A DNA stretch of 64,000 bases, taken from the NCBI GenBank assembly GCA_002281755.1, contig NCHB01000006.1, positions 1 to 64,000 on the forward strand. Direction: 5' to 3'. Positions 12,397-14,589 of this stretch are shown piece after piece. A model generated the notes under the pieces. The model ran no database searches, was not told the DNA's origin, and was given only the letters and a program-made list of their open reading frames with translations. Positions within the stretch are counted from its first letter, which is position 1, and every line of letters begins with the position of its first letter. The translations under genes and the position numbers were made by a program. The DNA is from Sulfurovum sp. 16-42-52. GTDB lineage: Bacteria; Campylobacterota; Campylobacteria; Campylobacterales; Sulfurovaceae.

Positions 12397-12792
12397 ATGT
12401 CTTATAAAATCAAACTCGACACCGAAAAACTCAAAAAAGAACTCACACCCCTAGAGTACAATGTCTGCCTCAACCACGGAACAGAAGCCCCTTTTCAAAA
12501 CGCTTTTTACAACTCCAAAACGCATGGAATGTATAGCTGCAAATGCTGTGCGACACCACTGTTTACTTCAGAAAGCAAATTTGACTCAGGAACTGGATGG
12601 CCTAGTTATTTTGAACCTATCAGTACAGATGTGATAGAGGAAGTAGTAGATAGCACGCTGGGTATGAGGCGCGTAGAAGTCCGTTGTGCTGCATGTGGTT
12701 CACATTTGGGTCATGTTTTTCCCGATGGCCCAGCACCCACTTATCAGCGTTATTGCATCAACTCTGCTTCTTTGTCATTCAAAGAAGATTAA
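12397..12792 (+). CDS. msrB: Peptide methionine (R)-S-oxide reductase
   Basis: Repairs oxidised methionine in proteins. The 131-residue single-domain protein has zinc pairs CKCC and CAAC, the GTGWPSY motif, and the catalytic Cys in RYCINSASL near residue 122. AAGGAA lies before the ATG. No MsrA fusion is present. It converges with the 88-residue gene downstream with a 2-nt gap. Confidence 0.95.
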   Translation: MSYKIKLDTEKLKKELTPLEYNVCLNHGTEAPFQNAFYNSKTHGMYSCKCCATPLFTSESKFDSGTGWPSYFEPISTDVIEEVVDSTLGMRRVEVRCAACGSHLGHVFPDGPAPTYQRYCINSASLSFKED

Positions 12793-12794
12793 GA

Positions 12795-13061
12795 TTATTT
12801 TTGAAGCTGTGCGGCGATGCGCCCCACAGCTTCATCCATCTCTTCTCTGGTCTGAAAAACAAAACTGTGTTTTTCTTCTTCACCTAGATGTACAAAAACA
12901 CCATAGCCTACTATCTCTACTCTGCCTTTAGACTCACTGTCTATCCACTCAAGGCTTACCTGCGTGGTTTCCTCTTTGTGTCCTGTTTTTACTACCGCTG
13001 CAGGGTAAAGCTGGGTGATGGTTGCTGTGTCAAATTGTTTGTTTTCAATGGTAAGTATCAT
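12795..13061 (-). CDS. Small conserved-looking protein, candidate leaderless gene
   Basis: Not recognised. The 88 residues alternate beta-like strands (LTIENKQFDTATITQLYPAA) with an acidic, charged C-terminal helix; there is no signal peptide or Cys. No ribosome binding site precedes the ATG. Instead a TATAAT lies 6 nt upstream, putting the expected transcription start at the ATG itself. The downstream NifU-like gene runs towards it on the same strand with a 36-nt gap, so it is not in that operon under this promoter. Confidence 0.6.
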   Translation of the reverse strand: MILTIENKQFDTATITQLYPAAVVKTGHKEETTQVSLEWIDSESKGRVEIVGYGVFVHLGEEEKHSFVFQTREEMDEAVGRIAAQLQK

Positions 13062-13097: not shown

Positions 13098-14018
13098 TCA
13101 GATAGGGATAACGCGGATATTGGGGTGGAGTTTGTGTTTGAGTGCATTTTCAATGGCAATCAGTGTACCGCTACCTGAACTTGAACAACTGCTGCATGCT
13201 CCAAGGTAGCTGATATAGACTTCAAACTCATCACCTTTTTCTTTCACACTGAGCACATCGATATCTCCGCCATCCATGATGAGAAACTGTCGAACCGTGT
13301 TGTCTATGGCAGTATCGATGGCGATGATACGCCCTTCTTCACACAACTCTGCAAACGGTGTAGCAGAAAGGATGTTCTCAGCTTCTTCTTGCTCTTTGAG
13401 TGCAACTTGGTGTGCTTCAAGCAAGCCATTGAGCGTTTCACTGCATGATAGATCTACAGAGCCGGCTTTGGTGTATGCTACCAATGCCTCATGGTTTTGA
13501 ATGTTGTGTGTCTTGATGGCATCTTTAAGTGCAGCCAGACTGAGCGGTGTATCTTTGCAGGGGAAAGTTTTTTCATCATGACTGAGTGCTTGATTGGTAA
13601 AAACTTTTACCGCGCGTTTGGCTGCATCGATACCAAAAACAATAGAATAGTTTTCAGATGCAGGAAGTGCTTCAATCGTAGGATTGTCACGCAGCAAACG
13701 CTCGATGACCTGATAATTGACGGTGTCTATCTGTGCGATGGTTTTGTTGGTAAACATCAGTGCCAGCATATAATTGACCGCTACACCGGAAGGAACACCC
13801 TCATAAGTATAACGCGCTAATACAACTGTATCTTCAACGGTATTGACCGCCCAGTAAAATGTGAGTGTGTAGCCCACTGATTCGTCACCATAGCTATAGG
13901 TAAACAAAGAAGCACCCAACCCTTTGGCTTCTTCTTCGGTGATGACACCGCGATATTTGGAGTCATTGATGAGCATCGCAACTTTGACGCCGTATTCGTT
14001 ATTTGTTTGCATATCCAT
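13098..14018 (-). CDS. NifU-family protein with degenerate N-terminal domains
   Basis: The 306 residues keep the three-part NifU layout: an IscU-like part (about 1-130), a BFD-like part (about 150-200, with EALVAYTKAGS) and a C-terminal Nfu domain with the cluster-binding GACSSCSS. The Cys ligands expected in the IscU part are gone: LGASL, ESVGY and GVPSGVA stand where LGC, SCGD and GCG occur in NifU. Only scattered Cys remain in the BFD part. It is probably a paralogue acting through the Nfu CxxC. The ATG at 14018 follows AAAGGAC; the open frame upstream is the divergent YqeY region and was discarded. Confidence 0.8.
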   Translation of the reverse strand: MDMQTNNEYGVKVAMLINDSKYRGVITEEEAKGLGASLFTYSYGDESVGYTLTFYWAVNTVEDTVVLARYTYEGVPSGVAVNYMLALMFTNKTIAQIDTVNYQVIERLLRDNPTIEALPASENYSIVFGIDAAKRAVKVFTNQALSHDEKTFPCKDTPLSLAALKDAIKTHNIQNHEALVAYTKAGSVDLSCSETLNGLLEAHQVALKEQEEAENILSATPFAELCEEGRIIAIDTAIDNTVRQFLIMDGGDIDVLSVKEKGDEFEVYISYLGACSSCSSSGSGTLIAIENALKHKLHPNIRVIPI

Positions 14019-14145: not shown

Positions 14146-14589
14146 ATGACCTTAAATGAACAAATCAAATTTGACATCAAAGAAGCGATGCGCGCAAAAG
14201 ATAATACCAAAAGAGATACACTCAGAAACATACAAGCTGCTATCAAACAGATAGAAGTGGATGAACGAAGAGAACTAAGTGACAGTGACGTGGAAGCCAT
14301 CTTGATGAAATATATCAAACAACGTGAAGATGCCAAAGCACAGTTCTCTGGGGCCGGCAGAGAAGATCTTGTTGCCAAAGAAGAAGCAGAGATAGCCATC
14401 GTCAAGGCTTATCTACCCGAACCCATGGATGATGTCGAACTAGAAGCCACACTCAAAGCCATCATCGCTTCCATAGCAGCTGAAGGCATGAAAGATATGG
14501 GTAAAGTGATGGGTGAAGCAAAAATAACCATCGGCAGTCGCGCTGATGGGGGTCGTATCAATGGGATGGTGAAAAAACTGTTGAGTTAA
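14146..14589 (+). CDS. yqeY: GatB/YqeY domain protein
   Basis: Stand-alone version of the tail domain of GatB/GatE amidotransferases, thought to contact tRNA. The 147 residues are the typical length, with AMRAKDNTKRDTLRNIQAAIKQ at the start and GKVMGEAK...GRADGGRINGMVK-type sequence at the end. AGGAGAG lies before the ATG. The precise role is unknown in the family. Confidence 0.85.
   Translation: MTLNEQIKFDIKEAMRAKDNTKRDTLRNIQAAIKQIEVDERRELSDSDVEAILMKYIKQREDAKAQFSGAGREDLVAKEEAEIAIVKAYLPEPMDDVELEATLKAIIASIAAEGMKDMGKVMGEAKITIGSRADGGRINGMVKKLLS

Follow-up and report, generated by a model that had tools for sequence, protein, structure and literature searches.

P0001, a 306-aa protein encoded on the minus strand of the window (the whole stretch of DNA analysed here, 64,000 nucleotides of contig NCHB01000006.1 of Sulfurovum sp. 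16-42-52), is a NifU paralogue in which the IscU building site is wholly gone, the BFD site is half gone, and the Nfu site is untouched. It has probably been turned into an Nfu-type Fe-S carrier. The best reading of the data is that, where SUF builds the clusters, NifU survives as no more than an Nfu-type carrier, which would work like NfuA.

The related copies suggest a stepwise dismantling of a cluster builder: the residues for building are lost first, the BFD site follows later or survives, and the Nfu site is retained in every copy read. This graded series, together with a contrast at a single locus in genus g18 described below, is a natural experiment on the roles of the NifU domains apart from building, and the same series bears on how one Fe-S assembly system yields to another. 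Literature searches, for which subscription papers were mostly outside reach, turned up no description of a cysteine-less NifU or of pseudo-enzyme pairs of NifS and NifU, which is no proof of absence.

Domain organization and ligand positions of P0001

P0001 is a single open frame at 13098-14018 on the minus strand, as initially annotated, and the domain order that the initial annotation had read in it (IscU-like, BFD-like, Nfu) is retained. The IscU-like domain (Pfam NifU_N, E 4.7e-10) covers residues 9-143 (13590..13994, minus strand). The weak BFD-like stretch, about residues 148-205 (13404..13577, minus strand), is placed by alignment and by a sub-threshold Pfam match (residues 161-201, E 0.03). 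The Nfu domain (E 3.3e-17) covers residues 234-304 (13107..13319, minus strand). The NCBIfam model NifU_proper (TIGR02000) spans the protein end to end (8-305), at 84.3 bits versus a cut-off of 273.3. No A-type domain, as in NfuA, is among the Pfam matches, the N terminus being NifU_N.

The genome of the window (G000; 66 contigs, 99% complete) also encodes, on a different contig (G000:C24) and with a NifS upstream, a canonical NifU that is 34% identical to P0001 and carries all the ligands. When the two are aligned, all six IscU ligand positions of P0001 are seen to be altered: Cys to V48 (13875-13877), Asp to Y50, Cys to V75 (13794-13796), Lys to E122, His to Y124, and Cys to S125 (13644-13646). 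The BFD site reads Cys-x-Asp ... Asp-x-x-Cys instead of CxC ... CxxC, with C154 (13557-13559) and C192 (13443-13445) at ligand positions 1 and 4, and D156 and D189 at positions 2 and 3. The Nfu CxxC, C275 (13194-13196) and C278 (13185-13187), is intact. The initial description of a NifU stripped of its IscU and BFD cysteines with an intact C-terminal motif is therefore accurate for the IscU and Nfu parts and too strong for the BFD part, where two cysteines remain. That description would have been undermined if the genome had no other NifU and the alignment placed intact ligands elsewhere in the protein; a second NifU exists, and in the alignment with it no ligand of P0001 is displaced. Relocation of the ligands was rejected, as the ligand positions align without gaps.

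Compared with the sequence features of known families, P0001 falls below the curated score of a NIF-scaffold NifU (TIGR02000) and lacks its IscU cysteines, SCGD aspartate, and CxC...CxxC, retaining the Nfu CxxC. As a BFD ferredoxin (PF04324) it reaches 15 bits versus a cut-off of 26, with two of the four cysteines. As an Nfu-type carrier (PF01106) it scores 62.8 bits versus a gathering score of 27, with the CxxC present.

An AlphaFold model of P0001 alone has a mean pLDDT of 43.8 and is usable for the Nfu domain only; because it is poor elsewhere, the degenerate domains have their fold assigned from sequence. Searched against solved structures, P0001 itself matched Nfu domains alone, and weakly, whereas a profile of 28 NifU* sequences (the divergent relatives defined below) matched structures of IscU/NifU (best E 2.5e-6) and of Nfu, and none of a BFD protein.

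An 88-aa ORF downstream (12795..13061, minus strand), which has no Pfam match, is kept in the two closest genomes and is possibly co-transcribed with P0001. The region is flanked by SelR (methionine sulfoxide reductase) and YqeY-like genes on the plus strand, at 12397-12792 and 14146-14589 of the window, respectively.

NifU* in the family

The 175 genomes of the family to which the window belongs were searched, and the divergent NifU matches were fetched and read, giving 62 rows in 57 genomes (hereafter NifU*). Six canonical rows, two of them the same G000 protein, were used for comparison; an intein-bearing NifU (L123) and a fragment (L136) were omitted from the tally. None of the three IscU cysteines is present in 59 of the 60 NifU* rows that include the region, the exception (G035) having one, and the Nfu CxxC is found in all 60 rows that include the Nfu region. 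Within the clade of P0001 (19 rows), the Asp and Lys positions are invariably Tyr and Glu, respectively (19/19 each), and the three cysteines are replaced by Leu/Val/Phe, Ile/Val, and Thr/Ala/Ser.

Some genomes of genus g1 carry two NifU* copies; those of G106 lie on one contig about 370 bases apart. In G012 and G013, frames of 262-275 aa contain IscU* and Nfu without BFD (L134, G012:C3; L135, G013:C265), and G012 also has a canonical NifU elsewhere.

A tree of 76 rows was built, for which five near-neighbour rows were dropped and 16 were added, 14 of them from other families of the order. The NifU* rows of the family, 55 in number, all fall on one side of a branch with 100/100 support, apart from canonical NifU. 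Loss of the IscU ligands is common to the whole NifU* clade. The shared loss may itself add to the support of this branch, because the ligand columns stayed in the alignment.

P0001 is under purifying selection. Two relatives from Sulfurovum MAGs are 94% and 90% identical to it. Among P0001 and its two closest orthologues the pairwise dN/dS is 0.074, 0.120, and 0.092 for the whole protein, 0.063, 0.107, and 0.102 for the IscU* part, and 0.000, 0.025, and 0.014 for Nfu. Eight other NifU* pairs gave overall values of 0.045 to 0.093. A pseudogene or decaying copy is ruled out by values so far below 1 in P0001 and its closest orthologues.

The NifS paralogue adjoining NifU*

A NifS paralogue (NifS*) stands immediately upstream of NifU* in genera g4, g5, g6, g7, and g8, and the two frames often overlap. 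The positions aligned were those that we take to be the PLP lysine, the catalytic cysteine, and the histidine stacking on PLP. Lysine and cysteine, by which an active cysteine desulfurase was recognized, are absent from all 30 NifS* that include the region, and the histidine is also gone; the NifS* of G021, cut by a contig end, is excluded from the 30. These proteins are nevertheless constrained, since dN/dS of six NifS* pairs is 0.05-0.17. In G012 and G013 a NifS with the lysine changed and its C-terminal part missing stands beside the IscU*-Nfu frame. A further NifS of G106, 60% identical to the canonical one, has both lysine and cysteine replaced and one in-frame stop within the match.

NifU* occurs without canonical NifS-NifU throughout g7 and g8 and in the greater part of g4 and g5; family searches found no other NifS or NifU in g7. 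G000 and most g1 carriers of NifU* also have the canonical pair. The latter distribution, together with selection on the IscU fold, would suit a regulatory or decoy subunit whose IscU* fold docks canonical NifS or NifU in mixed dimers and tunes the NIF pathway. Such a role is nonetheless unlikely, as NifU* persists where there is nothing canonical to regulate, and as it leaves the invariant Nfu CxxC unexplained. Of the two outcomes suggested initially for the scaffold, carrier or regulator, the carrier fits the lost building site, the invariant CxxC, and the purifying selection, and no positive evidence has come to light for the regulator.

Variation at the BFD-like site

Most NifU* copies retain at least two BFD cysteines. 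All four positions are cysteine in g7 and in G035. Genera g1, g5, and g8 have Cys-Asp-Asp-Cys or something close to it, and g4 has Asp at position 1, usually Phe at 2, usually Asp at 3, and usually Cys at 4; cysteine is absent from all four in G029, G032, one copy of G135, and four g4 copies. The pair equivalent to C154 and C192 is complete in 47 of the 61 scorable rows and wholly absent in 7, and the second cysteine occurs alone in the remaining 7. In P0001 the two cysteines may be linked as a disulfide or may coordinate a metal.

As a disulfide, C154-C192 might replace the BFD cluster as a redox sensor that gates the carrier. The near-invariance of the two cysteines in alignment A2, their tendency to be kept or lost together (47/61 and 7/61), and the SelR gene close by are in keeping with a sensor, but seven rows have the second cysteine alone, the copies of G029, G032, and G135 have neither cysteine there and are otherwise typical, and no structure puts C154 and C192 near each other. 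We consider the sensor quite improbable. No more credence than that can be given to an electron-transfer or metal protein, in which two Cys and two Asp of the BFD-like site would still hold a [2Fe-2S] cluster or other metal: although g1, g5, and g8 share Cys-x-Asp ... Asp-x-x-Cys or something near it, and all four cysteines are kept in g7 and G035, positions 2 and 3 are sometimes Glu, Asn, or Thr, and g4 has its own set of residues, given above.

It is hardly credible that NifU* is the leftover of a duplicated nifU heading for loss, for although true NifU and NifS pseudogenes with in-frame stops exist elsewhere in the order (G212), dN/dS is far below 1 in all three regions, every full-length copy has an open frame, and the replacement residues are fixed.

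Association with SUF and sulfur supply

SufB (E ≤ 1e-20) was matched in 46 of the 57 NifU* genomes versus 53 of the 118 others in the family, the latter being classed from search match lists that were not all read. Among genomes at least 90% complete the counts are 28/30 versus 33/64 (Fisher p 5e-5, relatedness ignored). The match in G035 is a SufD-like protein only, and those in G081 and G139 are weak; a strict count without these three is 45/57 versus 51/118. In the other 11 NifU* genomes SufB was not counted as present: G037 and G047 contain fragments of it, G025 and G077 have weak 24% matches, and seven, including the 99%-complete G045, have no match. As a SUF neighbour of g1 NifU*, G086 alone was counted, with SufB on the same contig. 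A neighbour cluster of SufC was dropped as SUF evidence, since it also holds other ABC ATPases, including the window's own ABC gene.

G000 itself has a SufB-SufC-SufD-SufE-SufT run (L117), in which SufB was identified by search, SufE and SufT by domains, and SufC and SufD by eye. Because the intact NifS-NifU is still there, NifU* in G000 need not be tied to SUF. G000 also encodes a separate small Nfu-domain protein (G000:C55; 92-aa ORF), so that a carrier is already available, which counts against the carrier reading.

A SufS-family search covered 31 chosen genomes. G036 and ten other g4 and g7 genomes have one match each, at the position of NifS*. G036, which is complete, has three matches to Aminotran_5, namely NifS*, an O-acetylhomoserine sulfhydrylase, and a protein recognized by eye as a DegT-type aminotransferase. 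The dead NifS* is thus the sole desulfurase-family protein found there, beside SufBCD, SufE, and SufT, and the SufE retains its Cys motif. In G191, G208, and G222 (g28; 99-100% complete, two contigs each), which have SufB, no SufS-family match was obtained at 1e-10.

By family search, then, no active NifS- or SufS-type cysteine desulfurase is seen in the SUF-bearing genomes G036, G044, G024, G028, and their relatives, nor in G191, G208, and G222. The SMS system of Methanocaldococcus (PMC12192291) is likewise a SufB/SufC-type assembly without cysteine desulfurase and can use sulfide. The desulfurase-poor relatives differ from it in having SufBCD, SufE, and SufT and in keeping a dead NifS beside NifU*, and the use of sulfide by them is putative. 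It is possible, though we hold it only tentatively, that NifS* and NifU* form a conserved pseudo-enzyme pair for trafficking only, with SUF building clusters on environmental sulfide without a cysteine desulfurase. Sulfur supply of this kind in these relatives is a lead, not a result; with a dead NifS beside a dead NifU and no active desulfurase found, the source of sulfur for their Fe-S clusters is directly testable.

Proposed mechanism and comparison with known systems

Because the three cysteines and the surrounding Asp, Lys, and His are replaced, P0001 should no longer be able to accept sulfur from NifS for assembly of a [2Fe-2S] cluster in its IscU domain. By analogy with known Nfu proteins, its CxxC would bind a [4Fe-4S] cluster between two copies, and the IscU fold that remains would serve for docking or dimerisation, much as the degenerate A-type domain of E. 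coli NfuA brings that protein to its targets. The donor of the cluster would be SUF or the canonical NifU of G000. In evolutionary terms, the presence of SUF would have made the building site of NifU and its partner NifS dispensable, and delivery by the Nfu end would have stayed under selection.

E. coli NfuA has an intact C-terminal Nfu domain and a degenerate A-type domain without ligand cysteines, which serves for targeting (PMC8593673). P0001 resembles it in joining a degenerate N-terminal cluster-protein domain to an intact C-terminal Nfu; in contrast to the A-type part of NfuA, the N-terminal part of P0001 is IscU-like plus BFD-like and derived from NifU. With the NifU of Azotobacter and Helicobacter, P0001 shares the three-domain order, the end-to-end NifU_proper match, and the intact Nfu CxxC, but all its IscU ligands and two of the four BFD cysteines are replaced, and it scores far below the family cut-off. 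Nfu-only carriers of the H. pylori HP1492 type also have an Nfu domain with CxxC, but they are single-domain proteins of about 90 aa, whereas P0001 has a conserved degenerate scaffold in front. The Nfu of H. pylori binds [2Fe-2S] or [4Fe-4S] (PMC8144621).

Comparable losses elsewhere in the order

A NifU-like match was found in 366 of the 398 genomes of the order. At a SufB-linked locus of genus g18 (family f8), 17 genomes were read. Seven have NifS and a NifU holding all ligands. In contrast, the other ten have no NifS at the locus, and their NifU lacks every IscU cysteine and keeps all the BFD and Nfu cysteines. G436 and G411, from sister genera of g18, have the intact arrangement. SufD and a SufS-type desulfurase are visible at three of the ten loss loci (G181, G199, and G426), those that extend far enough. 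The best tree places the g18 NifU among canonical NifU, but a tree constrained to unite the cysteine-less forms is not rejected (p-AU 0.18), so that the claim of an independent loss in g18 rests on synteny.

In genus g28 (family f18), all that is left of NifU is a lone Nfu frame, accompanied at two of the loci read by a separate BFD frame (L182 and L184; identified by Pfam at L184). SufB is present in 9 of the 10 g28 genomes tested. In G180 a lone Nfu frame immediately precedes SufB.

Remains of NifU and NifS with in-frame stops occur in the single-contig genome G212 (L180, G212:C1:51438-55259), where SufB has no match. In G148, by alignment, a frame (2356-4308 of L123, G148:C35:3500-9500) encodes a canonical NifU that is interrupted immediately ahead of its third IscU cysteine by an in-frame insert of about 300 aa. 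With Cys at one boundary and Asn-Cys at the other, this insert looks like an intein at the building site. Split or partial NifU matches in long frames point to the same in G152, G061, G194, and G211.
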